Positions 4,693 to 24,024 of a stretch of 34,169 nt of DNA are shown here, piece after piece. The notes under the pieces were generated by a model. That model made no database searches, was not told the DNA's origin, and saw only the letters and a list, made by a program, of their open reading frames with translations. A program made the translations under genes and the position numbers. The stretch's first letter is position 1; every line of letters starts with the position of its first letter. The stretch is from an uncultured Agathobaculum sp. (lineage in GTDB: Bacteria > Bacillota > Clostridia > Oscillospirales > Butyricicoccaceae): the NCBI GenBank assembly GCA_944384725.1, contig CALWUJ010000020.1:1-34169 (forward strand), read 5' to 3'.

Positions 4693-5046
4693 ACAAATCC
4701 CTCCCTATCCAGCCAATACCGTTCTATGATGCAGTATAGCACAGTGCACTGGAAAAGGAAAGGATAACCGCACGCTGTGACGCTTTGCACATCGCACCAT
4801 CCACCAATCATACGCCCCGATGCGTTTCTGTTCCGTGCACCCAAACAGACGCTTTTTCACTGTAAAGTCGAATTACGTCAGATTGATTTAGTTATTTTTC
4901 ACAACCATTTATTGCTATATAAAATCCGCATTATGAATTTTGTTCAAAATGCATCTGGTCAAAATAATACCAATATAGTATTCTTTTGGTGTTGATAAAG
5001 ATAATACATATTATTTGAAATTGATATTGATTAAGGAGGTTTCCCC
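4693..5046. other. Divergent AT-rich intergenic region
   Basis: This 354-bp stretch separates two divergent units and holds no plausible gene. Besides the leftward extended -10, a weak rightward promoter can be drawn (TGGTCA at 4956-4961, 17 bp, TATTCT at 4979-4984). A strong AAGGAGG site lies just before the dehydrogenase start at 5047. The stretch 4880-5030 is strikingly AT-rich, but I see no clear operator palindrome. Confidence 0.5.
4733..4741 (-). promoter_or_regulatory. Extended -10 promoter for the membrane/SLH unit
   Basis: On the minus strand TGC precedes TATACT, an extended -10 element about 40 bases before the start codon. No good -35 box is seen at the usual distance. Confidence 0.5.
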
Positions 5047-6957
5047 ATGTTATTCCAAACCACCGACGCGCATGAACAACTGCGCGCTGAAATCCGCGCT
5101 TTTGCGGAAGCTGAGGTCAAGCCACAGGCTTTCCTCATGGACAAAGAAAACGAATTCCCGGCGGAAGCTGTCAAAAAAATGGGCGAGCTCGGCTTTATGG
5201 GGCTGCCTTACCCCAAGGAATACGGCGGCGCCGGTTTGGATGTACTGAGTTATGCGATCGCGGTGGAAGAGCTGTCGCGCGTGGACGGCGGCACAGGCGT
5301 TATCCTGTCCGCCCATGTATCGCTCGGCTCCTGGCCGATTTTCGCATTCGGCACCGAGGAGCAGAAGCAGAAATACCTCGTCCCGCTGGCAAAGGGCGAG
5401 AAAATCGGCGCGTTCGGCCTGACCGAGCCCAACGCCGGCTCGGACGCAGGCGGCACCGAGACCACGGCCATTGACAAGGGTGACTACTACCTGCTCAACG
5501 GCGGGAAAATCTTCATCACCAACGCCCCCAAGGCGGATACCTATGTTGTGTTTGCGGTCACCACGCCGGATATCGGCACCCGCGGCATTTCGGCGTTCAT
5601 CGTCGAAAAGGGCTGGGAGGGCTTCACCTTTGGCGACCACTATGACAAAATGGGCATTCGCTCCTCGTCCACTGCCGAACTGATCTTCAACGATGTCAAG
5701 GTGCCCAAGGAAAACCTGCTCGGCAAGGAGGGACAGGGCTTCAAAATCGCTATGGCAACGCTGGATGGCGGACGCATCGGCATTGCGTCGCAGGCGCTCG
5801 GCATCGCACAGGGCTCATACGAAGCGGCGCTCGAATACGCCAAGGAGCGCGTCCAGTTCGGCAAACCGATCGGCTTCCAGCAGGCAATTTCGTTCAAACT
5901 TGCAGATATGGCGACCAAGCTGCGCTGCGCGCGCATGCTGGTTTACTCCGCGGCCGAGCTAAAGGAAGCGCATGAGCCGTATGCCACCGAAGCAGCCATG
6001 GCGAAGATGTATGCATCCGACATTGCGCTGGAAGTGACCAACGATGCGCTGCAAATCTTCGGCGGCACGGGCTTCCTCAAGGGCATGGATGTCGAGCGTA
6101 TGTACCGCGACGCCAAGATCACCACGATCTACGAGGGTACCAACGAAATCCAGCGCGTCGTCATCGCCGCGAACATTCTGGGCAAGCCGCCCAAGAGCGA
6201 AGGCGGCTCGTCCAGCCGTCCAAAGAAGCCCGCACCGGTCACCGGTGTGCGCAAGCGCAACATCCTCAAGGAAGGCTCTGCGGAAGAGAAGGTTGCAGCA
6301 CTGGTGGCAGCGCTCCAGAAGGACGGGCACGATTTTACCTTCGGCATCCCGCTCGACACCCCGATCACACAGGCCGAACGCGTAGTTTCCGCCGGTCAGG
6401 GCATCGGCAGCAAGGAAAACATGCAGCTGATCGAGGATTTGGCGCGCGCCGCCGGCGCTGCGGTCGGCTCCTCCCGTCCGGTGGCGGAAACGCTCAAATA
6501 TGTGCCGCTTGACCGGTATGTCGGCATGTCCGGTCAGAAATTCAAGGGCAATCTGTATATCGCCTGCGGCATTTCGGGCGCCATCCAGCACCTGAAAGGC
6601 ATCAAGGACGCCTCTACTATCGTAGCAATCAATAAGAACGGCAATGCGCCCATCTTCAAGAACTGTGACTATGGCATTGTGGGCGATGTCAACGAGATCC
6701 TGCCGCTGCTGACCGCCGCGCTTGATACCGGCGAAAAGCAGCCTGCCCCGCCTATGGTCAAAATGAAGCGCCCGCCCGTGCCCAAGCCCGAGCCGATCGG
6801 CAAACGCTATGTCTGCGGCGGCTGCGGCTATGAATACGTCCCCGAACTGGGCGATGAGGACGCCGAAATTGCGCCCGGCACGCTGTTTGAAAAGCTGCCC
6901 GAGGACTGGGTATGCCCGGAGTGCGGCGAAGGCAAAGAAATGTTCATTGAAGGCTGA
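5047..6957 (+). CDS. Acyl-CoA dehydrogenase-ETF alpha-rubredoxin fusion protein
   Basis: Three redox modules in one 636-residue chain. Residues 1-380 are a short-chain acyl-CoA dehydrogenase: [11 protein letters not shown] for flavin/substrate binding and catalytic base Glu363 in [10 protein letters not shown]. Residues about 395-565 match the C-terminal FAD domain of electron-transfer flavoprotein alpha ([32 protein letters not shown]), without its N-terminal domain and without an ETF beta partner nearby. After a Pro/Lys linker, residues 587-636 are a rubredoxin with iron ligands Cys590, Cys593, Cys623 and Cys626. Electrons from an acyl-CoA (butyryl-CoA likely, not shown) could pass FAD to FAD to Fe within one polypeptide. 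FprA follows 23 bp downstream and is a natural rubredoxin oxidase. The start is fixed by AAGGAGG 6-12 bases upstream. Domains are clear; physiological direction and partner are inferred. Confidence 0.93.
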
Positions 6958-6980
6958 CCGGAAAATAAGGAGGAGAATAT

Positions 6981-8195
6981 ATGTACTGCGTGCGCAATGT
7001 AACAGACGATCTTTATTGGGTCGGCGCGAACGACCATCGTCTTGCTTTGTTTGAAAATATCCACCCCATCCCGCGCGGCGTATCCTACAACGCCTATCTG
7101 CTGCTTGACGAGCAAACCGTGCTGTTTGATACGGTCGACTGGTCGGCCTGCCGCCAGCTGCTGGAAAACATCGAGCACCTGCTGGATGGCCGTCCGCTGG
7201 ATTATCTGGTCATCAACCACATGGAGCCCGACCACGGTGCTTCCATCGAGGAGGTTTTGATCCGTTATCCGTCGGTCAAGGTCATTTCCACTGAAAAGGC
7301 ATTCATGCTCATGCGCCAGTTTGGCTTTGACATCGACGGTCATGAACAGATTGAGGTCAAGGAAGGCGACACCCAGAGCTTCGGCAAGCATGTTGTGACC
7401 TTTGTCGCCGCGCCCATGGTGCACTGGCCCGAGGCCATGGTGACCTTTGACACCACCAACGGCGTGCTGTTCTCGGCCGATGCGTTTGGCTCGTTCGGTG
7501 CGCTGGACGGCAAGCTATTCGCAGACGAAGTCAACTTCGACCGCGACTGGATCGATGATGCCCGCCGTTATCTGACCAACATTGTCGGCAAATACGGCCC
7601 TCACGTTCAGCTGCTGCTCAAAAAGGCGGCGGGTATTCTGGATCAGATCAAGTTCATCTGCCCGCTGCACGGTCCGGTCTGGCGTGAAAATCTGGGATAC
7701 TTTATCGACAAATACGACCACTGGAGCCGCTACGAGCCGGAGGAAAAGGGTGTCATGATCGTTTACGCTTCGATGTATGGCAACACCGAAGCCGCGGCGC
7801 AGGCCTTGGCAAGCCGTCTGTGCGAGAAGGGCGTCACCAATGTCCGTCTGTATGACGTTTCCAACACTCATGTTTCTTATCTGATTTCTGAAACCTTCCG
7901 TCTGAGCCATGTCGTGCTGGCATCGGTGACCTATAATCTGGGCATTTATCCGGTCATGCACAATTATCTGATGGATATGAAGGCACTCAACCTGCAAAAC
8001 CGCACCTTTGCCATCATCGAGAATGGGTCTTGGGCCGTCAAGTCGGGCGATCTGATGCAAAAGTTTATCGACGAAGAGCTCAAGAACATGACTGTGCTCA
8101 ACGAGCGGCTGTCTATGGCTTCCGCACTGCTTCCCGACAAGGCCGGCGAGCTGGATGCGCTTGCGGATGTGATCGTCGAATCGGTCAACCAGTAA
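6981..8195 (+). CDS. fprA: Flavodiiron protein (FprA-type oxidase)
   Basis: Reduces O2 to water and/or NO to N2O using electrons usually delivered by rubredoxin; cytoplasmic oxygen defence in anaerobes. The N-terminal metallo-beta-lactamase domain carries the diiron ligands: His80, Glu82, Asp84 and His85 in NHMEPDH, then His148, Asp167 and His230. The C-terminal flavodoxin domain starts near residue 257 with IVYASMYGNTEAAA for FMN binding. The length of 404 residues is typical of two-domain enzymes, with no extra rubredoxin or flavin reductase domain; the missing rubredoxin is present as the tail of the preceding gene. AAGGAGG lies just upstream of the ATG, and the 23-bp gap implies co-transcription with the dehydrogenase fusion. 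Confidence 0.95.
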   Translation: MYCVRNVTDDLYWVGANDHRLALFENIHPIPRGVSYNAYLLLDEQTVLFDTVDWSACRQLLENIEHLLDGRPLDYLVINHMEPDHGASIEEVLIRYPSVKVISTEKAFMLMRQFGFDIDGHEQIEVKEGDTQSFGKHVVTFVAAPMVHWPEAMVTFDTTNGVLFSADAFGSFGALDGKLFADEVNFDRDWIDDARRYLTNIVGKYGPHVQLLLKKAAGILDQIKFICPLHGPVWRENLGYFIDKYDHWSRYEPEEKGVMIVYASMYGNTEAAAQALASRLCEKGVTNVRLYDVSNTHVSYLISETFRLSHVVLASVTYNLGIYPVMHNYLMDMKALNLQNRTFAIIENGSWAVKSGDLMQKFIDEELKNMTVLNERLSMASALLPDKAGELDALADVIVESVNQ

Positions 8196-8244: not shown

Positions 8245-8289
8245 AAAGCGCCGTCCCCATCGGATTACAACCAATGGGGACGGCGCTTT
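8245..8289. terminator. Bidirectional terminator between fprA and bioY
   Basis: A 16-bp perfect inverted repeat (8245-8260 with 8274-8289) has a 13-base loop and flanking A- and T-rich ends. It lies between convergent fprA and bioY. Confidence 0.85.
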
Positions 8290-10734: not shown

Positions 10735-12918
10735 TCAATTGGTGTCCACCGTGCGCGTTACGTCCACCACGCCCTTGATCGAGCGCAGGCGGCTGATCAG
10801 GTTATCCAGCTGATGCACGCCCGCAACGTCTACCATGGCGTTGATGATACCATAGCCGTCGTTGAGATCGCGCGCGGAAATCTCATGCACGTTGATCTTG
10901 CAGACAGCGAGTACTGCCGTCACATCACTCAGCACGCCAATACGGCTGCGCGTCGAAATTTGCAGACCGGTGGAGAAGCGGTTGGTGCGGTCGGAGATGC
11001 CCAGATCCTCGTCCCACCACGCGCGCACCCAGCGGTCCGGGTCCTCCTGCATGTGAACGTTAACACAGTCGCGCCGATGGATGGACACGCCATAGCCGCG
11101 CGTAACAAAACCAACGATCTCGTCGCCCGGGATCGGCGTGCAGCAGCGCGCGAACTTGACCAGACAGTTGTCGATGCCTTCGACCACCACGCCGGTTGTC
11201 GAGCGGGTGACGCGCTTGGGCTGCTGCTCCGGCTGCGGCTGCGCTGCGCGTTCCGCCAGTTCGCGCTGACGGCGCAGCTTACCGACATCGTCTTTCACCT
11301 TGTTGATGACCTTGGTCAGCGTGATGCCGCCGTAACCGATAGCGGCATACAATTCGTCGAGCGTATTGAACGAGAACTTGTTGAGCGTATTTTTACGCAC
11401 TTCCTCATTCTCATAAAAGCCGTTATACAGCAGATTTGCGCGCAGCTCACGGTCCAGATCCTCGCGGCCGTTGACGATGTTCTCCTCGCGGCACTCCTTC
11501 TTGAACCATTGCTTGATCTTGTTGCGCGCCTCGGTGGTCTTGACGATCTTGACCCAGTCGCGGCTCGGCCCGTGCGCCTCTTTGGAGGTCAAAATTTCCA
11601 CGATATCGCCGTTTTTCAGCTGGCTGTCGATCGGCGCAATGCGGCCGTTGATCTTGCAGCCGGTCATACGATTGCCGACCGCCGAGTGGATTGCGTAAGC
11701 AAGGTCGATCGGGGTCGCGCCTGCGGGCATGTTGACCACGTCGCCCTTGGGCGTAAAGACGAATACCTCGTCGGCAAACAGATCGACTTTGATGTTCTTG
11801 ATGAAATCCTCCGCCTCGGTGTCCTGCTGTGCTTCCAGCAGCTGCCGAATCCACGCAAAGGTCTCCTCATTGCCCTTTTTGCTCAAGCCCTGCTTGTATT
11901 TCCAGTGCGCCGCCACGCCGTATTCGGCCATTTTATGCATTTCGGTCGTGCGAATCTGAATCTCAAACGGCACGCCCGCGCGCCCAATGACCGTCGTGTG
12001 CAGCGACTGGTATCCGTTGGGCTTGGGGGTCGAGATATAGTCCTTAAAACGCCCCGGAATGGGCTTGTAAAGGTCGTGTACATAGCCGAGCACGTTATAA
12101 CAGTCCGCCACCGTGTCAACGATGACGCGCACCGCGCAAATATCGTAAATCTCGTCGATCGTTTTGTGCTGCGCGTACATTTTGCGATAAATCGAATAGA
12201 TATGCTTGACGCGCGCCGAGATCGTGTTCTTGATATGCGCTTCCGCGAGCTTGGCGCTGATGCGATCCTGAATGCGTTTGAGGAAAACCTCCTGCTGCTC
12301 ACTCTGCTTTTTCAGTCCCTCGACGATCTCATTGTAGCCGATCGGGTCAAGGATTTTGAGCGACAGATCCTCCAGTTCCCACTTGATGCGGCTCATGCCC
12401 AAGCGGTGGGCGATCGGCGCATAGATCTCCATGGTTTCGAGCGCTTTGTCGCGCTGCTTGCGCTCGGGCAGATACTGGAACGTGCGCGCGTTATGCAAAC
12501 GGTCAGCCAGCTTGATGAGGATCACGCGGATATCCTTTGCCATGGCAAGGAACATCTTGCGCAGATCCTCAAACTGCTCCTGCTCCTTGGAGTAGCGCAG
12601 CATACCCAGACGCGTAACGCCGTCGACCAGTTCGGCAACCGGTGTGCCGAACTTATTTTCGATTTCCTTATAGCCGAAGTTGGTATCCTCAATGCAGTCA
12701 TGCAGCAGCGCCGCGCAGATGGAGTCGGTGTCCAGACCCATCTCGACCACGATTTCGGCAACCGAAACCGGATGGATGATGTATGGCTCGCCGTTTTTGC
12801 GCTTTTGTCCCTCATGCGCCGCAGCCGCGCACTCATAAGCCGCGCGGATCTTGCGGATGTTCGCCTGCGGGTTTTGCTTCTGCACGCGCTCGATCAAAAA
12901 GTCCAATTTATTCTGCAT
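10735..12918 (-). CDS. rel: Bifunctional (p)ppGpp synthetase/hydrolase, RelA/SpoT family
   Basis: Makes and degrades the stringent-response alarmone. Domains in order: HD hydrolase (about residues 40-190; LLHDCIEDTNFGY and DRLHNART are intact), synthetase (about 235-360; FKDYISTPKPNGYQSLHTT is intact), TGS (about 390-450), and a C-terminal ACT domain (about 655-727). Both catalytic halves look functional, as expected for the single long Rel of Firmicutes. I prefer the ATG at 12918 because GGGGGA lies 8 bases upstream; an in-frame ATG at 12933 would add five residues but has a poor site. It begins 18 bp after recJ in the same operon. Confidence 0.95.
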   Translation of the reverse strand: MQNKLDFLIERVQKQNPQANIRKIRAAYECAAAAHEGQKRKNGEPYIIHPVSVAEIVVEMGLDTDSICAALLHDCIEDTNFGYKEIENKFGTPVAELVDGVTRLGMLRYSKEQEQFEDLRKMFLAMAKDIRVILIKLADRLHNARTFQYLPERKQRDKALETMEIYAPIAHRLGMSRIKWELEDLSLKILDPIGYNEIVEGLKKQSEQQEVFLKRIQDRISAKLAEAHIKNTISARVKHIYSIYRKMYAQHKTIDEIYDICAVRVIVDTVADCYNVLGYVHDLYKPIPGRFKDYISTPKPNGYQSLHTTVIGRAGVPFEIQIRTTEMHKMAEYGVAAHWKYKQGLSKKGNEETFAWIRQLLEAQQDTEAEDFIKNIKVDLFADEVFVFTPKGDVVNMPAGATPIDLAYAIHSAVGNRMTGCKINGRIAPIDSQLKNGDIVEILTSKEAHGPSRDWVKIVKTTEARNKIKQWFKKECREENIVNGREDLDRELRANLLYNGFYENEEVRKNTLNKFSFNTLDELYAAIGYGGITLTKVINKVKDDVGKLRRQRELAERAAQPQPEQQPKRVTRSTTGVVVEGIDNCLVKFARCCTPIPGDEIVGFVTRGYGVSIHRRDCVNVHMQEDPDRWVRAWWDEDLGISDRTNRFSTGLQISTRSRIGVLSDVTAVLAVCKINVHEISARDLNDGYGIINAMVDVAGVHQLDNLISRLRSIKGVVDVTRTVDTN

Positions 12919-12936
12919 ACTTCGTTCCCCCATTCT

Positions 12937-15012
12937 TCAGCCCGCCATACTTTGCAGCGTGGCAAGAACGACCGAGCCGGATATATCCGCCTTACCCTCG
13001 TAAGGCTTGAGCAGGATGTTGAGCATCCCTTCTTTGAAATGGTAACTGATCAGTCCGGACTCAGAAAACACGTCCAGACACACAAACAGCTTGCCGATGT
13101 TGATGTCGCGGCGGCTCTCCCAAGCCACGCGGCGCGAAAGCGCGCCGTCCGGCACAGAAAGCCTGCCATCCTCTGCGCGGCACACGATATGCCGCCACAC
13201 CGCCACCAAGTCCTTGCGGTCAGGCAGCAGCAGGCGTGCCTCGCGCGCAGTCAGCGGCCCATCGGCCATGTAGGTATTATACACATTGAGCAGCTTCTGG
13301 TCAGCCAGATGCTCGCAATCGCTCAGCTGCGCGTCGCACAGCGTCAGCTGCACCGTGCGGCGGCCGCGGAACTCATTGATTTCCAGATGGAAGGCCGCGT
13401 CAACGCGGTTTCCCTCAACAAAGCCCAGTCCGCCCGCACCCGTGCCGAACCAAATCGCGGAAAAGCGCATGCCGTCTTTGACCAGCGTCATGCGCACATG
13501 CCGGTCGGACGAAATGGGCGTGATATCCTCCGCCACCATGTCCCTCATGCAGAACACCGGCTCGGCGTTGCACATGCCGTATGGCTCAAGGACACTCAGC
13601 GCTTCTATATTCTCTTCGGTCAGCCATTCGGGCTGCACCATGCAGTCGATATGCAGCTGCGGCACCAGCTCCGCCATGGTGACATGGTTCTCGGCATAAG
13701 CGCGCAGCCGCTCGCGCAGCGTATCCACCTGATTTGCAGCCACCGTTAAACCGGCAGCCAGCGCATGCCCGCCGTACCGCTCGAGCAAATCCTCGCACGA
13801 GGTCAGCGCATCAAACAGGTTGAACCCGCCCACCGAACGGCCCGAGCCCTTGCCCGTACCGTCCTCGTCGAGCGAAATCAGCACGACCGGACAGCCGTAC
13901 CGGTCGCACAGGCGCGAGCAGACAATGCCGATCACGCCGTGATGCCAGCCTTTTTCCGCCAGCACGATGATTTTATCCTCCAGCGGGTTATATTCCTTGC
14001 GCAGACGGGCGAGCGCCTGCGTCAATATCTGGTTTTCCTCGTTTTGCCGCAGCTTATTCTGCTCGCAGAGCTGCGCAGCCAGCGACTGCGCGCGCACCGG
14101 GTCGTGCGTCAGGAACAGCTCGGCAGCAAGCTCGGCGCGGCCCATGCGGCCCGCCGCATTGATGCGCGGCGCCAAGACGAAGCTGATGGTGGACGAGGTC
14201 AGGCGCTTGTGCTTCATACCTGCCTCGCGCAGCAGCATTTCCAGACCGACGTTGCCGGTCGAAGCCATTTTTTTCAGCCCTGCCGCTACAATGATGCGGT
14301 TTTCGCCCGTAATGGGCATCACATCCGCGACCGTGCCCAGCGCCACCAGATCGGCATACCGCTCGAGCACCGCTTCCGTATTGCCCTCGAGGGCGCAGAT
14401 CAGCTTGAACGCTACGCCCACGCCCGCCAGACTATCAAACGGATAGGTACAATCCGGCCGCTTATAATCGACCACTGCATCTGCTGCGGGCAGCGCGTCG
14501 TGGCATTCGTGATGATCGGTGATGACCACCTGCATGCCCAGCTCACGCGCCACTGCGATTTCTTCGTCGGCGGTGATGCCGGAATCGACCGTGATGAGCA
14601 GGCGCGTGCCCTTTGCATACAACTCCTCCATCGCCGCGCGGGACAGGCCATATCCTTCGCGCAGACGGTTGGGGATATAATATTCACACTGAGCGCCGCA
14701 GCTGCGCAGATAATCCACCAGCGTGCAGGTAGCGGTCACGCCATCCACATCATAATCGCCGTATACCACGATTCGTTCGCCGCGCGCAATCGCACCGCGC
14801 ACCACGGAAACGGCTTTGTCCATATCCGCCAGCAGAAACGGATCGTGCAGGCCGGATATATCGCAGCTCAGGTAATCCGCCGCGGCCTCGGGCGTGTCAA
14901 TCCCGCGCGCGACAAGCACGGCTGCGGTCAGCGGGGCATACCCGCCCTCCTCCAACAACGCGCGCACGCGCGCCTCAGCGGGGTCGGCAATCACCCATCG
15001 CTTTGTTTTCAT
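12937..15012 (-). CDS. recJ: Single-stranded-DNA-specific exonuclease RecJ
   Basis: 691 residues of the DHH phosphoesterase family; degrades single-stranded DNA 5' to 3' in recombination and base-excision/mismatch repair. Motifs visible: VVYGDYDVDGVTATCTL near residue 85 and the DHH triad in VITDHHECHD near 160; the DHHA1-type motif GRSVGGFNLFDALT and an OB-like domain follow. The C-terminal 120 residues form an extra domain seen in longer Firmicutes RecJ proteins. The first gene of a leftward operon with rel, the HAD phosphatase and tatD; GGGAG precedes the ATG at short spacing. Confidence 0.94.
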   Translation of the reverse strand: MKTKRWVIADPAEARVRALLEEGGYAPLTAAVLVARGIDTPEAAADYLSCDISGLHDPFLLADMDKAVSVVRGAIARGERIVVYGDYDVDGVTATCTLVDYLRSCGAQCEYYIPNRLREGYGLSRAAMEELYAKGTRLLITVDSGITADEEIAVARELGMQVVITDHHECHDALPAADAVVDYKRPDCTYPFDSLAGVGVAFKLICALEGNTEAVLERYADLVALGTVADVMPITGENRIIVAAGLKKMASTGNVGLEMLLREAGMKHKRLTSSTISFVLAPRINAAGRMGRAELAAELFLTHDPVRAQSLAAQLCEQNKLRQNEENQILTQALARLRKEYNPLEDKIIVLAEKGWHHGVIGIVCSRLCDRYGCPVVLISLDEDGTGKGSGRSVGGFNLFDALTSCEDLLERYGGHALAAGLTVAANQVDTLRERLRAYAENHVTMAELVPQLHIDCMVQPEWLTEENIEALSVLEPYGMCNAEPVFCMRDMVAEDITPISSDRHVRMTLVKDGMRFSAIWFGTGAGGLGFVEGNRVDAAFHLEINEFRGRRTVQLTLCDAQLSDCEHLADQKLLNVYNTYMADGPLTAREARLLLPDRKDLVAVWRHIVCRAEDGRLSVPDGALSRRVAWESRRDINIGKLFVCLDVFSESGLISYHFKEGMLNILLKPYEGKADISGSVVLATLQSMAG

Positions 15013-15043
15013 ATGACTCCCTCATTTATTTTATATTACCATT

Positions 15044-15072
15044 ATTATACCAAAACGCGCCACAAAGCTCAA
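15044..15072 (-). promoter_or_regulatory. Promoter of the recJ-rel-HAD-tatD operon
   Basis: Minus-strand TTGAGC (15067-15072) and perfect TATAAT (15044-15049) lie 17 bp apart, about 32 bases before recJ. Confidence 0.8.
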
Positions 15073-15092
15073 CATTTTTATGCAAATTGTCA

Positions 15093-15125
15093 AAAGCGGG
15101 CATTTCACAAGGAAACACCCGCTTT
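15093..15125 (-). terminator. Terminator after uvrA
   Basis: Stem AAAGCGGG/CCCGCTTT (15093-15100 with 15118-15125) with a 17-base loop lies just beyond the uvrA stop. It has T-runs on both sides and could also act on the other strand. Confidence 0.7.
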
Positions 15126-15144
15126 TTTCGCGCAAAAAACCGCC

Positions 15145-17991
15145 TTATTCTTCTGTTTTCACTGTATTCTGCCGCTCCAACATCCGTCCGAGGTACTGTC
15201 CGGTGTAAGAACCGGGGCAGGCCGCGACCTCCTCCGGCGTACCGGCTACGACCAGACGGCCGCCGCCGTCACCGCCCTCCGGACCAAGGTCGAGGATATA
15301 ATCAGCCGTTTTGATCACGTCCAGATTATGCTCGATCACGACCACGGTATTACCTGCATCGACCAGCTTTTGCAGCACATCGACCAGCTTATGCACATCT
15401 GCAACGTGCAGGCCGGTGGTCGGCTCGTCGAGAATATAGATGGTCTTGCCGGTCGAGCGCTTGGAAAGCTCGGTGGCGAGCTTAGCGCGCTGCGCCTCAC
15501 CGCCGGACAGCGTGGTAGAGGACTGACCGAGCTTGACGTACCCCAGTCCGACCTCACGCATGGTTTCCAGCCGCCGCGCAATCTTAGGCACGTTGGCAAA
15601 GAAATCGCAAGCTTCATCCACCGTCATGTCGAGCACTTCATAGATATTTTTGCCCTTATAGCGCACTTCGAGCGTCTCCTTGTTGTACCGCTTGCCCTTG
15701 CACACATCGCAGGGAACATACACATCCGGCAGGAAGTGCATCTCGATCTTCAAAAGACCGTCGCCTGCACAGGCTTCACACCGACCGCCCTTGACGTTAA
15801 AGGAAAACCGGCTCGGGCCATAGCCGCGTGCCTTAGCATCTGCCGTTTTGGCGAACAGATCACGGATATCGTTGAACACGCCCGTGTAGGTTGCGGGATT
15901 GGAACGCGGCGTGCGCCCGATGGGCGACTGATTGATGTCGATGACCTTGTCCAGATGCGAAAGGCCGATGAATTTATCGTGTGCGCCCGCGCGCGTTTTC
16001 GCTCCGTTCAGCTCAGCGGCAAGCTTTTTGTACAAAATCTCGTTGACAAACGAGGATTTGCCCGAACCGGATACGCCGGTCACGCAGGTGAACGTCCCAA
16101 GCGGAATGGTAAAATCCGTGTGTTTCAGGTTGTTCACCGCGCAGCCCTTGACCGTCAGCTTTTTGCCGTTGCCCTTGCGGCGCACCGCCGGCACCGGAAT
16201 GCACTTGCGGCCGGACAGGTACTGTCCCGTGATCGAGGTTTCACTTTTCAGCAGGTCGTCCACCTTGCCCTCGAACACAACTTCGCCGCCGTTGCGCCCC
16301 GCGCCCGGGCCGATATCCACGATGTGATCTGCCGCGAGCATGGTGTCCTCGTCATGCTCGACTACGATCAGCGTGTTGCCGAGGTCGCGCAAACGTTTGA
16401 GCGTCGCCAGCAGCTTGTCATTGTCACGCTGGTGCAAGCCGATGGAAGGCTCGTCCAGAATATACAGCACGCCCATGAGCGACGAACCGATCTGGGTCGC
16501 AAGGCGGATGCGCTGGCTCTCGCCGCCCGACAGCGTACCGGACGAGCGCGAAAGCGTCAGATATTCCAGACCGACCGACTGCAAAAAGCCCAGCCGATCC
16601 ATGATCTCCTTGATGACGCGGTCGCCGATCTTGTGCTGCATCTCGGTCAGCTGCAAGGTATGCAGAAATTCCATCGCCTTGACGACCGACTTTTCGGAAA
16701 ACTCCGCGATGTTCAGCCCGCCGACCGTCACCGCCAGCACCTCAGGCCGCAAACGGCGGCCGTGGCACGCAGGACAGGGGATTTCGCTCATGCACTCCTC
16801 GATTTCGCTGCGCGCATAATCGCTCGACGTCTCCTTGTAGCGGCGCTCAAGGTTGCACACAATGCCCTCAAACGGTTGGCGCATCACGCCGCCCGACACA
16901 CGGCTGACCGAAAGCTCCAGCGGCTCGTCCCCCGTGCCGTACAGCAGCTCGTGCACCGCCGCTTCGCTCATCTCCTCGATCGGCGTGTCGAGCGTAAAGC
17001 CGTGCTTTTTGCCGAGCGCGGTGAAATACATGCCCGCGATCGTGCCCGGCTCGGCGCTGCCCCAGCCGGAGGCGCGAATCGCGCCCTTGCGGATGGACAG
17101 CTTGCGGTTAGGCAGAATGCGGTCGGGATCGACGCGCATCTGCATGCCGAGACCGGTACACACCGGACAGGCGCCGTATGGATTGTTAAACGAGAACATG
17201 CGCGGGGTCAGTTCTTCAATCGAAATGCCGCAGTCCTCGCAAGCGTAGTTCTGCGAAAAGGTAATCGGCTCGCTGCCGACCACATCCGCGATCACCAGCC
17301 CACCCGACAGCGCCGCCGCGGTCTCGACCGAATCGGTCAGGCGGCTGCGCACATCCGCGCGGATGGCAATGCGGTCGACCACGATCTCGATGTTGTGCTT
17401 TTTGGTCTTTTGCAGCTTGAGCTCCTCGGACAAATCGCGCATTTCGCCGTCCACCCGCACGCGGACATAGCCCTGCCGCCGAGCGTCCTCGAACACCTTG
17501 ACGTGCTCGCCCTTTTTTCCGCGAATGACCGGCGCCAGAATTTGTACGCGCGTTTTTTCCTCCAGCGTCATCAATCGATCGATGATCTGGTCGATGGTCT
17601 GCTGGTGGATCTCCTTGCCGCACTTGGGGCAGTGCGGCGTGCCGATGCGCGCCCAAAGCAGACGCATGTAGTCGTAGATTTCCGTCACCGTACCGACCGT
17701 CGAACGCGGGTTCTGCGAGGTGGTTTTCTGGTCGATCGAGATGGCAGGCGAAAGGCCGTCGATGTAGTCCACATCCGGCTTGTCCATCTGCCCCAAAAAC
17801 TGCCGCGCATAGCTGGACAGCGACTCGACATAGCGGCGCTGGCCCTCGGCGTAGATCGTGTCAAACGCCAGAGATGACTTGCCCGAACCGGACAGGCCGG
17901 TCAGCACAACCAGCTTATCGCGCGGAATCTTGATATCAATGTTTTTCAGGTTGTGCTCGCGCGCACCCTTGATATGAATATATTCGTGCAT
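15145..17991 (-). CDS. uvrA: Excinuclease ABC subunit A
   Basis: DNA damage recognition ATPase of nucleotide excision repair. The 948-residue chain has two ABC modules: Walker [10 protein letters not shown] near residue 32 and GVSGSGKSS near 640, signature motifs LSGGESQR and LSGGEAQR, and two Cys4 zinc sites (CEDC...CPVC and CEAC...CDVC). Nothing is missing. It lies 56 bp after the metallo-beta-lactamase gene on the same strand and is the last gene of the GNAT-radC-uvrB-MBL-uvrA array. The ribosome site is weak (GAGG about 17 bases upstream of the ATG), which fits read-through or coupled expression. Confidence 0.97.
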
Positions 17992-18047: not shown

Positions 18048-18869
18048 TTATACCTCGATGATACTGCCCGCAGACAAAAACGCGATGCGCGCTCCGAGCG
18101 TTTCCCGCAGCACGTCATACGCATGCGGCCCGGTGCAATGACAGGTGTAATAGCGGCTGTCTGTTTGCGCCAAGCGTTCTGCAACCGCACGGATATTCTC
18201 GTCCGGCTCGCTTTTGCCGGTGGACGGACTGAACAGGTGCATCCCGCCGATGACTACATCCGGGTCACGTCCGAGCAGCGCTTTTGCCCGCACGCAGATA
18301 TTGACCACGCCGCGATGCGCGCAGCCGGTAAACAATACAGCCTTGTCGCCTTCACGCACGATCAGGCTTTGTTCATGTATGAAACGGTCAGGGACGTACT
18401 CTCCGTTTTCCCGCTCGTACAGCGAGCGGTTTCCGGTTGGCACGCAGTCCTCGCCCGTGATATCGGAAAACAGGGTCAGCGTGTCGCTCACCTGTAACAC
18501 GCCTGACACGCGCCGCAGGCGCGGGTTTTCCGCCAGCGCCGCATCCAGTCCAATGTCCTTAATACCCTCCGGCTTGTGCGAAAAGTGCCTATCAAACGCC
18601 TTTTCGTGCAGATACACCGGCGCATGGTCGTTGATTTCCAGAAACGCCGCCAGTCCGCCGCCGTGGTCGTAATGCCCGTGCGAGACAAAGGCTGTGTCCA
18701 CCGCGGACAGGTCGATGCCGAGCGTCTCTGCGTTTTTCAGGAACAAATCGGTCTGCCCCATGTCAAACAGCAGCTTTTGACCGTTCGCTTCGATATAAAA
18801 ACTCAGCCCATGCTCACAGACAAAATCCGATGCACACGCGGTATCCTCCATGAGTGTAAAAATCCTCAT
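18048..18869 (-). CDS. MBL-fold hydrolase inside the uvr operon
   Basis: 273 residues with the zinc signature [10 protein letters not shown] at about residues 63-72, a further metal His in FTGCAHRGV and a late CHCTG motif. The overall shape (an N-terminal [12 protein letters not shown] stretch, GGMHLF, then CHCTGPHA) resembles the MBL group annotated as dihydropterin-methyl-ribofuranosylaminobenzene-phosphate synthase-like, whose substrates are mostly unknown. Its ATG overlaps the uvrB stop codon (ATGA), so translation is coupled to UvrB. A role in repair is suggested only by that location. Confidence 0.85.
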
Positions 18870-20824
18870 TTTCCTTCCTCCAGCGCCTTGATCTGGTCGC
18901 GCAGCTGCGCGGCGATCTCGAATTCCAGCATCTTGGCCGCTTCCTTCATCTGACGGGTCAGGCGGGCAATCTCCTGCTGCCGCTCGCCCTTGGTGCGCAG
19001 CTTCTTCTTGCTGCTCGTCGGCACGTTGGACGTGATTTCAATAACGTCCTGCACCTTCTTTTTGACCGATTTGGGTACGATGCCATGCTTTTTGTTGAAC
19101 GCGTCCTGCAACGCACGGCGGCGCTCGGTTTCGTCCATTGCGCGGCGCATCGAGGGCGTGATGCTGTCCGCGTACAGCACGACCATACCATGCTCGTTAC
19201 GCGCGGCGCGGCCGATGGTCTGGATGAGCGAAGTCTCGGAGCGCAAAAAGCCCTCCTTGTCTGCGTCGAGGATGGCAACGAGCGACACCTCGGGAATATC
19301 CAGACCCTCACGCAGCAGGTTGATACCGACCAGCACATCGAACACACCCAGCCGCAGGTCGCGCACCAGCTCCTGCCGCTCGATGGTCTTGACATCGTGG
19401 TGCATGTAGCGCACCTTGATGCCCGCGGTTTCCAGATAGCCGGTCAAATCCTCGGCCATCTTTTTGGTCAGCGTTGTCACCAGCACACGCTCACCCTTTG
19501 CGGTACGCGCGTTGATTTCGCCAATCAGGTCGTCAATCTGCCCCTCGACCGGGCGCACGACCACCTCCGGGTCAAGCAGGCCGGTCGGACGGATCACCTG
19601 TTCGACCACCTGTCCCGAACGCGACAGCTCATACTCACCCGGCGTTGCAGAGACGTAAACGATCTGATTGAGACGCTCGTTAAACTCGTCGAAGTTCAGC
19701 GGACGGTTATCATAAGCCGAGGGCAGGCGGAAGCCGTTCTCGACCAGACTTTCCTTGCGGGCGCGGTCGCCGTGGTACATGGCGCGCACCTGCGGCAGCG
19801 TGACATGGCTCTCGTCCACAATCAGCAGGAAGTCCTCCGGGAAGTAGTCGATCAGGGTAAACGGGGCGCTGCCCGGCTCTCTGCGCGACAGCACGCGTGA
19901 ATAGTTCTCAATGCCGCTGCAAAAGCCGATCTCCTGCAGCATCTCAATGTCGTACCGTGTGCGCTGACCGATGCGCTGCGCTTCGATCAGCTTGCCGTTC
20001 TCCTCAAAATATTGGATGCGCTGTTCCAGTTCCTCCTCCAAATCCTGAATGGCGGCCTGCAATTTGTCCTTGGGCGTGACATAGTGGCTGGCGGGGAAGA
20101 TCGCAGTGTGCCCCAGCTCGCCCAGCACCACACCGGTCAAGGGATTGATCCGGCTGATGCGGTCGACCTCGTCCCCGAAGAACTCAATGCGCACGACATC
20201 CTCATCCGAGTAAACCGGCCAGATCTCGACTGTGTCGCCGCGCACGCGGAAGCGGTTGCGCTCAAACGCAATGTCGTTGCGCTCATACTGAATATCAATG
20301 AGACGGTGAATGAGCGTTTCACGGCTGATCTCCATGCCGGGACGCAGCGAAATGACCATCTTCTTATAATCGATCGGGTCACCCAGCGAATAGATGCACG
20401 ACACCGACGAGACGATAATCACGTCCCGCCGCTCAGACAGCGCCGAGGTCGCGGAGTGGCGCAGGCGGTCGATTTCGTCGTTGATGGCCGAGTCCTTTTC
20501 GATATAGGTATCGGTCGAAGCGATATACGCCTCTGGCTGATAATAATCGTAGTAAGAGACAAAATACTCGACCGCGTTATTCGGGAAGAACTCCCGCAGC
20601 TCGGTACACAGCTGCGCAGCGAGCGTTTTGTTATGCGCGAGCACCAGCGTCGGCCGCTGGGTCTGCTCGATGATATTTGCCATGGTGAAGGTCTTGCCCG
20701 AGCCGGTCACACCCATGAGGGTCTGCTCGGTCAGGCCGTTGTTGATGCCCTCGACCAGCTTTGCGACCGCTTGCGGCTGATCGCCCGCCATCTTGTAATT
20801 GCTGACAATCTGAAAATCCGGCAT
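18866..20824 (-). CDS. uvrB: Excinuclease ABC subunit B
   Basis: Helicase-like damage-verification subunit of nucleotide excision repair, 652 residues. Visible: Walker [11 protein letters not shown] near residue 39, the beta-hairpin region [12 protein letters not shown], the DESH box in [13 protein letters not shown], helicase motif VI region QTIGRAARN, and the C-terminal UVR motif that contacts UvrC ([19 protein letters not shown]). It starts 3 bp after radC with AGGAGG upstream and overlaps the MBL gene by 4 bp at its end. Confidence 0.97.
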
Positions 20825-22410: not shown

Positions 22411-22965
22411 ATGGTTCGTCATGGTTTTATCCATTCCAAAGAAGATATCAAATTTCTCATTCTGTTTGCCATGGATCAGCTGCCTTTTCCGGTCAGTTTC
22501 AGCACAGTCGTGGACCTGACGACCTGGTGCGATGAAGGCTTTGGCTATTTTGAGCTGAGCGAAGCGTTCTATGAGATGGTGCCAACCGGCCACATCGAGG
22601 AAGTTCCCGGCGATGGTGAGCCTTCCTACCGCATCACGGACAAAGGCCGCGATGCCATCCGCGTGTTTGAAAAGCAGCTGCCCTATCCGGTGCGCGAAGC
22701 TGCACAGCGCTCTGCGCTGCGGGTTGTGCGCCAGATCCGGCGCGACGCTGCGATTCATACGTCCGTGACCGAGCGCGCTGCCAATGACCTGACCGTCCGC
22801 ATGGAGATGGAGCAGGTGTTTGCCATTGAAATGGATGTGGTCAGCCGCGGACAGGCCGCGATGCTCGAGCGCACCTTCAAAAACAACGCGGAGGCGATTC
22901 ACCAGACCCTGCTGGCCGCCATGACCGCAGACTACGAAACCGAGAAAGAAGACGAAACCCCTTGA
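22411..22965 (+). CDS. DUF4364 family winged-helix protein
   Basis: 184 residues from the ATG at 22411, preceded by GGGGAGG; the longer frame upstream crosses the promoter and is excluded. The N-terminal half (HSKEDIKFLILFAMDQL, then a Y.ITDKGRDAI wing) looks like a winged helix, and the C-terminal half is mixed alpha/beta, as in DUF4364 proteins common in Clostridia. These are probably regulators, but no target is established. Its stop codon overlaps the start of the LrgA-like gene, so it is the first gene of an operon with lrgAB and may control it. Confidence 0.85.
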   Translation: MVRHGFIHSKEDIKFLILFAMDQLPFPVSFSTVVDLTTWCDEGFGYFELSEAFYEMVPTGHIEEVPGDGEPSYRITDKGRDAIRVFEKQLPYPVREAAQRSALRVVRQIRRDAAIHTSVTERAANDLTVRMEMEQVFAIEMDVVSRGQAAMLERTFKNNAEAIHQTLLAAMTADYETEKEDETP

Positions 22966-23339
22966 ACTACATTCGGCAACTGGGCGTCCTGATCGCCTGC
23001 TGCGTCGCAGGCGACGCGCTTTCCATTCTGCTGCACGGCGCACTACCCGGCAACGTGCTCGGACTGACACTGCTGCTTTTGCTGCTGGTTTTCGGCCCGG
23101 TTCGGCTGAACCATGTCGAGCACACGGCGGATTTTTTGCTGCAAAACATGGCATTTTTCTTCCTGCCCGCCTGTCTGGGCGTGCTGGAGATTTTCGCACA
23201 GATCAAAAGCGAAATCCTGGCCATCCTTGCGGTGTGTGTACTGACCACGCTATGCACCGCGGCAGCCACCGTGTTCACCGTGCACATCGTGTTCCGCTTG
23301 CAGAACCGCGAGAGCGAGGAGGCGTTTGACCATGACTGA
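22962..23339 (+). CDS. lrgA: CidA/LrgA family membrane protein
   Basis: 125 residues, four hydrophobic segments, with the family pattern LPGNVLGLTLLLLLL and a later FFLPACLGVLE. CidA/LrgA proteins are holin-like and pair with a CidB/LrgB protein, here encoded next. The start is a TTG that overlaps the DUF4364 stop (TTGA), so it relies on translational coupling. The 3' end overlaps lrgB by 8 bp. Function in murein hydrolase control or small-acid export is family knowledge, not shown here. Confidence 0.88.
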   Translation: MNYIRQLGVLIACCVAGDALSILLHGALPGNVLGLTLLLLLLVFGPVRLNHVEHTADFLLQNMAFFFLPACLGVLEIFAQIKSEILAILAVCVLTTLCTAAATVFTVHIVFRLQNRESEEAFDHD

Positions 23340-24024
23340 GCTGCTTTCCTCCCCCACCTTCTGGATGGCGTTGTCCATCGGCTGTTACGCATTAGGCGTC
23401 AAGATTCAGCAGAAAACCGGATCGCCGCTGTGCAATCCCCTGCTGATTTCTGCCATCATGGTTGGCGTTCTGTTGGTCGTGACCGGCACCACCTACCAAA
23501 CCTATGAAAGCGCGGGTCAGCTCATTTCCTTTTTCCTGACCCCGGCAACGGTGGCGCTCGCCATACCGATCTACCGCAAGCTGGATGTACTGAAAAAGAA
23601 TCTAGTGCCCATTCTTGCCGGTGCCTTGGTTGGTTCGCTGACCTCTATCCTGAGCGTGCTGCTGTTCAGCCGCCTGTTTGGCCTGTCTGCTGCCACAACA
23701 CGCTCTCTTGTCCCCAAATCGGTCACGACGCCGATTGCCGTTGCGCTGTCCGAAATGATGGATGGTCTCGCGCCTATCACCGCAATTGCGGTGGTGTTTA
23801 CCGGCATCGTTGGCGCGATCCTGCTGCCGACCTTCCTCAAATGCATCGGCGTGCGCAATCCTGTGCAGATGGGTCTGTCCATCGGCACCGCCGCCCACGC
23901 GGTCGGCACTTCGCGCGCCATCGAACTGGGCGAAACCGAAGGCGCCATGAGCGGCCTTGCCATCGGCGTTGCCGGTCTGCTGACCGCACTGCTTGTATCA
24001 ATCGGTTCGATATTTTTTGCTTAA
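23332..24024 (+). CDS. lrgB: LrgB family protein
   Basis: 230 residues, many membrane segments, with LrgB signatures SLVPKSVTTPIAVALSE and GTAAHAVGTSRAIELGETEG. I place the start at the ATG at 23332 because GAGGAGG ends 9 bases before it; an in-frame TTG two codons earlier is too close to that site. Overlaps lrgA by 8 bp and is followed by a terminator. Works with the CidA/LrgA partner at the membrane. Confidence 0.92.
   Translation: MTELLSSPTFWMALSIGCYALGVKIQQKTGSPLCNPLLISAIMVGVLLVVTGTTYQTYESAGQLISFFLTPATVALAIPIYRKLDVLKKNLVPILAGALVGSLTSILSVLLFSRLFGLSAATTRSLVPKSVTTPIAVALSEMMDGLAPITAIAVVFTGIVGAILLPTFLKCIGVRNPVQMGLSIGTAAHAVGTSRAIELGETEGAMSGLAIGVAGLLTALLVSIGSIFFA

Follow-up and report, generated by a model that had tools for sequence, protein, structure and literature searches.

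The question raised by this locus is whether an acyl-CoA dehydrogenase, an ETF-alpha flavin domain and a rubredoxin joined in one chain, and encoded beside a flavodiiron protein, form a new route from acyl-CoA to oxygen or a copy of one already known. The window, by which we mean the whole stretch of 34,169 nucleotides that was analysed, is contig 20 of an Agathobaculum assembly of 1.94 Mb that is 78% complete. A sequence-only reading of it had proposed a direct path from acyl-CoA to O2 or NO.

Domains and surroundings of the gene pair

The fusion gene, bcr (5047..6957, plus strand), starts with ATG and encodes 636 amino acids. Its acyl-CoA dehydrogenase part (5047..6180, residues 1-378) was matched by the Pfam models Acyl-CoA_dh_N, Acyl-CoA_dh_M and Acyl-CoA_dh_1 with E values of 9.5e-43, 9.9e-26 and 2.9e-50, and carries Glu363 (6133-6135) within the motif YEGTNE. 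The C-terminal FAD domain of ETF-alpha follows (6364..6723, residues 440-559), with residues 440-520 matching Pfam ETF_alpha at E 1.6e-28, and near the end of the chain stands a rubredoxin domain (6805..6945, residues 587-633, E 9.5e-19) containing Cys 590, 593, 623 and 626. The ETF N-terminal domain, PF01012, was not found in the BCR chain by Pfam, as had been stated from the letters alone, and its absence rules out BCR being an ETF family member (EtfAB). The second gene, fdp (6981..8195, plus strand, 404 aa), begins 23 bp after the bcr stop; ribosome-binding-like sequences precede both ATGs, and a terminator-like inverted repeat was noted by eye 3′ of fdp at about 8246..8289 on the same strand. 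The encoded flavodiiron protein (FDP) consists of a beta-lactamase-like domain (Pfam ODP) and a flavodoxin domain (Flavodoxin_1) only, and H80, E82, D84, H148, D167 and H230 are all present, which by sequence makes it a class A FDP, alike in domains and ligand motifs to Moorella FprA (1ycf). Glu363, the four cysteines and the FDP ligand residues presumably have the roles known from their families. On all of these points, from the one-chain fusion with its key residues to the FDP gene 23 bp on, Pfam and residue checks agreed with the sequence-only reading.

The genome contains two PF01012 genes on two further contigs, and next to each stands an ordinary acyl-CoA dehydrogenase gene. It also has a second FDP and another rubredoxin gene. 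Neither a second, separate ETF-alpha FAD domain nor RnfC was found in this 78% complete assembly. In the genus, RnfC is present in 24 of 25 genomes and missing from this assembly alone, which makes assembly gaps the likely cause; Bcd-ETF and Rnf both belong to an energy-saving cycle proposed for the system discussed below. Elsewhere in the window, RelA/SpoT-, RecJ-, UvrA- and UvrB-like genes occupy the minus strand (10735-17991 and 18866-20824), and the long plus-strand frames that overlap the first three, of up to 1370 aa, gave no match in Pfam and are unlikely to be genes. At 22962-24024 (plus strand), 15 kb from bcr, genes of the LrgA and LrgB families stand next to each other; LrgAB is also described in a lactate/ETF cluster of F. 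nucleatum (PMC12630350).

Relation to butyryl-CoA oxygen oxidoreductase

Butyryl-CoA oxygen oxidoreductase (BOOR), whose primary paper is Bystrom & Wolthers (Biochemistry 2024, cited in PMC12288474), consists of BCR and FDP; according to PMC12288474 it was characterised in Fusobacterium nucleatum and has been reported from butyrogenic gut Firmicutes. That source defines BCR as an acyl-CoA dehydrogenase, the C-terminal part of EtfA and a rubredoxin in a single chain, and gives the Fusobacterium complex four plus four subunits and butyryl-CoA:O2 activity. The activity is restated, with the genes named FN1423-FN1424, in PMC12630350 (2025), and a 2026 preprint (PMC13404960) describes BOOR pairs adjoining an Rrf2 regulator in gut Clostridia, including Eisenbergiella tayi. 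PMC12911393 mentions the BOOR paper among its references only, and the preprint's main text does not name Agathobaculum. The system is thus already known, and a new pathway is ruled out, with BOOR in print (PMC12288474, PMC13404960). The mechanism first proposed is broadly right, and a path from acyl-CoA to O2 that needs no ETF-beta, ferredoxin or NADH agrees with the published account (PMC12288474).

The BCR of the window is 77.5% identical over residues 1-635 to that of Fusobacterium vincentii, and the FDPs are 68.4% identical. Identical columns of the two BCRs number 313 of 378 in the dehydrogenase, 99 of 122 in the ETF and 30 of 49 in the rubredoxin part; Glu363, the four rubredoxin cysteines and all listed FDP positions are common to both pairs, which also have the same gene order, with a 24-bp gap in F. 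vincentii. This species, formerly a subspecies of F. nucleatum, served as the Fusobacterium reference (NZ_CP084075.1, locus L221), standing in for FN1424/FN1423, and all identities were measured on it. The window's pair and that of F. nucleatum share domain order and the bicistronic arrangement; the differences are the host, a member of the Clostridia, and residue 451, which is Gln in the window and Lys in F. vincentii. The 2.1-Mb F. vincentii record is labelled a plasmid and is probably the chromosome. The BCR of E. tayi, one of the species shown to have BOOR (PMC13404960), belongs to the same kind of gene pair and is 85% identical to the window's.

To see how far the fusion and its neighbour are conserved, 99 relative genomes, own included, were searched, and 27 contained the fusion (25 full-length, one cut by a contig end and one spread over two contigs). 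Within the genus it occurred in 18 of 25 genomes, in the family outside that genus in 9 of 36, and in the order outside that family in none of 38. Its presence in 27 of the 99 genomes rules out an assembly chimera and, likewise, a fusion by chance. A scan of named genomes gave 572 related stretches, of which the best 80 were taken; together with the 27 relatives these made 107 loci and 98 distinct BCR proteins, that of the window among them. In 93 of these 98 distinct loci (best 80 of 572 included) an FDP frame lies no more than 600 bp 3′ of BCR and in the same orientation, and at the remaining five the sequence ends 1 to 89 bp past bcr. Glu occupies the position of Glu363 in 99 of 99 aligned BCR rows, the window being entered twice among the 98 distinct proteins (again with the best 80 of 572). 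In a class-wide draw, 20 of 291 genomes, own included, had the fusion at E 1e-150 or better, and FDP follows BCR at 18 of the 18 new, divergent loci that it supplied. The predicted linkage of the fusion to the FDP gene was therefore upheld, also at 19 of 19 loci of the genus g144 described below. Among the matches listed, BCRs 95-98% identical to the window's came from, among others, four Candidatus Agathobaculum species and A. desmolans ATCC 43058 (95%), identities that make Agathobaculum the very probable host. In Candidatus Agathobaculum merdipullorum (L007, on the same contig as L035), one of the 93 loci, the downstream FDP lies in two frames, by frameshift or sequencing error. Vescimonas fastidiosa has a BOOR pair, with Rrf2 upstream and a nitroreductase downstream, on pMM35_02 (L222, NZ_AP023417.1), a 142-kb annotated plasmid, and from this pair BOOR may reside on a movable or secondary replicon.

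Taking these data together, we consider the bcr-fdp pair to be very probably (about 0.93) the Agathobaculum copy of BOOR, judging from its sequence. This assignment follows from the domains and their order, which are those of the published BCR with the FDP gene adjoining, from the identities and common key residues with the F. vincentii pair, from the FDP following BCR in 93 of 98 loci (best 80 of 572 included) and 18 of 18 divergent ones, from the closeness of the E. tayi BCR, and from the two other Bcd and ETF gene sets of the same genome. Counting against it are the iron-less BCRs described below and the failure to find RnfC and a separate ETF-alpha FAD domain in the 78% complete assembly. 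We infer that the Agathobaculum proteins act like Fusobacterium BOOR, and likewise infer the order of the electron steps. At its dehydrogenase FAD, BCR would oxidise butyryl-CoA or a short-chain acyl-CoA like it, and electrons would pass from there to the FAD on the built-in ETF-alpha domain and then to the rubredoxin iron. They would continue into FDP, with its FMN and diiron site, and O2 would there be reduced to water, while the crotonyl-CoA formed would return to the butyrate pathway. The chain first drawn as FAD, FAD, Fe and diiron names centres that match those of BOOR and omits the FMN of the flavodiiron protein.

Three other explanations bear on the acceptor, the substrate and the direction. 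The pair could mainly be an acyl-CoA-driven NO reductase for nitrosative defence rather than an O2 reductase, since the best solved relatives of its FDP, Moorella FprA (1ycf) and E. coli flavorubredoxin, are NO reductases, and the regulator adjoining many BOOR pairs is said to resemble NsrR (PMC13404960). The Fusobacterium complex is nevertheless given as lacking NO reduction in PMC12288474, and the window's FDP is 68.4% identical to a Fusobacterium FDP, that of F. vincentii; we judge this main role very unlikely, and the NO part of the original proposal unlikely. A different short-chain acyl-CoA might be the main substrate, with the same path to O2. The best NCBIfam match of BCR is acryloyl-CoA reductase, at 492.6 bits against a cut-off of 640 and hence below it, and none of the best 25 of 31 matching models reached its own cut-off. 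The number of dehydrogenase columns identical to F. vincentii and the presence of butyryl-CoA dehydrogenases among the closest solved structures speak for butyryl-CoA, which makes another main substrate improbable. Members of the genus Agathobaculum produce butyrate. Finally, BCR could run in reverse and reduce crotonyl-CoA with electrons entering through rubredoxin, in favour of which are the published name, butyryl-CoA reductase, and the separate rubredoxin gene of the genome. The direction given in PMC12288474, however, is oxidative. Near-universal pairing with an O2-reducing FDP (best 80 of 572 included), and the availability of two ordinary Bcd and ETF sets for crotonyl-CoA reduction, also argue against this direction, which we regard as very improbable. 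The oxidative, O2-reducing BOOR thus remains the preferred assignment. It sets the window's FDP, with its acyl-CoA donor, apart from most FDPs studied, which receive electrons from reduced pyridine nucleotides (PMC12288474).

Regulators and sequences upstream of bcr

An Rrf2-family gene stands immediately upstream of bcr in 37 of the 98 distinct loci (best 80 of 572 included), as at E. tayi (L110), where it lies 168 bp upstream. Another 53 of the 98 (same set, best 80 of 572 included), the window's among them, have at least 800 bp of upstream sequence and no Rrf2 gene within 1 kb, and 8 were too short upstream to judge. In lacking an adjoining Rrf2 gene, the window's pair differs from the gut Clostridia pairs described with one in PMC13404960. 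Two Rrf2 genes above the cut-off were identified in its own genome, neither adjoining bcr. One of them, L117, gave the best match to the bcr-linked regulators (up to 68.7 bits), which is too weak for it to be named as the bcr regulator.

At 32 of 96 loci (best 80 of 572 included) the 120 bp before the start contain the pattern GGATA-N5-TATCA with at least 8 of 10 positions, whereas 30 shuffles gave 7.5 on average and 12 at most; the pattern had been picked post hoc from the same sequences on which it was scored. The same half-sites at other spacings occurred in 4 to 15 loci. Divided by regulator, the pattern was present in 19 of 37 Rrf2-linked and 13 of 59 unlinked loci (best 80 of 572 included), and 7 of the 13 unlinked ones are close Agathobaculum, including the window's. 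Most sites, 28 of 32, begin 34 to 58 bp upstream of the start. The pattern would fit a candidate operator that is retained also at loci without an adjoining regulator gene. In the window the candidate site lies at 4999..5013 (plus strand), a weak one that matches the post hoc pattern at 8 of 10 positions. A Fur/PerR-like 7-1-7 box with at least 11 of 14 positions was present in 18 of 96 upstream regions (best 80 of 572 included) against 4 in a single shuffle, a weak signal.

The ETF-alpha flavin site and rubredoxin domains without iron ligands

The dehydrogenase part and ETF-alpha FAD domain of BCR are related to those of bifurcating Bcd-EtfAB complexes such as 5ol2, from which the chain differs in having no ETF-beta or ETF N-terminal domain, in its added rubredoxin and in changed FAD-site motifs. 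Solved ETF-alpha chains (five of the 14 matched) have G-R-G as their first motif and VGQTGK or VGQSGK as their second. In the BCR alignment, which has 99 rows and 98 distinct proteins, the window being in twice, the Arg position of the first motif (residue 451, 6397-6399) is occupied by Lys in 64 proteins, by Gln in 32 (window included), by Val in 2 and by Arg in none, and the second motif (residues 494-497, 6526-6537) is VGMSGQ in all 98, both counts including the best 80 of 572. The 18 divergent BCRs have Lys (8), Leu (5) and one each of Ile, Val, Met, Arg and Gln at the Arg position, Met494 in 17 of 18, and Ser495 and Gln497 in 18 of 18. Arg itself was found there in 19 iron-less BCRs, described next, and in one four-Cys relative, L161. 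In free ETFs these positions are close to the flavin, and the FAD of the BCR ETF domain is therefore likely retuned relative to theirs.

In 29 of 29 BCRs found in the Clostridia genus g144, the four rubredoxin cysteines are replaced by Asp, Ser, Ser and Ser (loci L139, L141-L159, L171-L189 and L211-L220). L139 was met first, in the class-wide set, and its family (120 genomes) and order (249 genomes) were then searched. The family search gave an iron-less BCR in 19 of the 21 g144 genomes listed, the other two (G430 and G481) showing a short rubredoxin match only. All four cysteines are kept in the 11 BCRs fetched from other genera of the family, in the other 17 class-wide BCRs (G188 being in both sets), and in all closer BCRs that reach the rubredoxin domain (best 80 of 572 included). 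In a FastTree of 66 rows, computed without the rubredoxin part and rooted on F. vincentii, the iron-less BCRs form one clade of 30 tips, in which one genome appears twice, and the four-Cys BCRs make up the other 36 tips; clade support was 1.0 in a smaller tree. Since they group in one clade, the four cysteines were probably lost once.

Despite this loss, the domain is still matched as Rubredoxin by Pfam (E 1.1e-15). Averaged over 171 pairs, pN/pS was 0.096 in the dehydrogenase part, 0.160 in the ETF domain and 0.168 in the rubredoxin domain, and the linkers had 0.236 and 0.195; with pS at about 0.5 these ratios are rough. The iron-less domain is under purifying selection and not decaying. At 19 of 19 flanked g144 loci, an FDP frame that has each of the four ligand motifs starts at most 7 bp from where the BCR frame ends, and a separate four-Cys rubredoxin is present in every one of these 19 genomes. 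A 774-residue FDP frame in L177 was discarded as an artefact of an N run. Neither the FAD-site changes nor the iron-less BCRs appear in those parts of the BOOR literature that were available.

The simplest reading is that the iron-less domain docks, and that FMN receives its electrons from FAD either directly or via the separate rubredoxin. We give even odds to the fuller proposal that g144 BOOR runs in this way without rubredoxin iron, the domain acting as a docking clamp, and that the window's domain may dock as well as relay. The iron-less BCRs call into question the rubredoxin iron as an obligatory step, and a pair that has lost these ligands throughout a genus, while otherwise staying intact, is a natural experiment that bears on the need for iron. 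The changed FAD-site motifs likewise suggest an ETF fragment tuned unlike free ETFs. For Agathobaculum, the assignment to BOOR would give a gut genus a complete, well-conserved O2-consuming pair fed by butyryl-CoA, the intermediate before butyrate. Because the pair would draw on butyryl-CoA, butyrate output could fall on exposure to O2, as PMC12288474 and PMC13404960 have already suggested.
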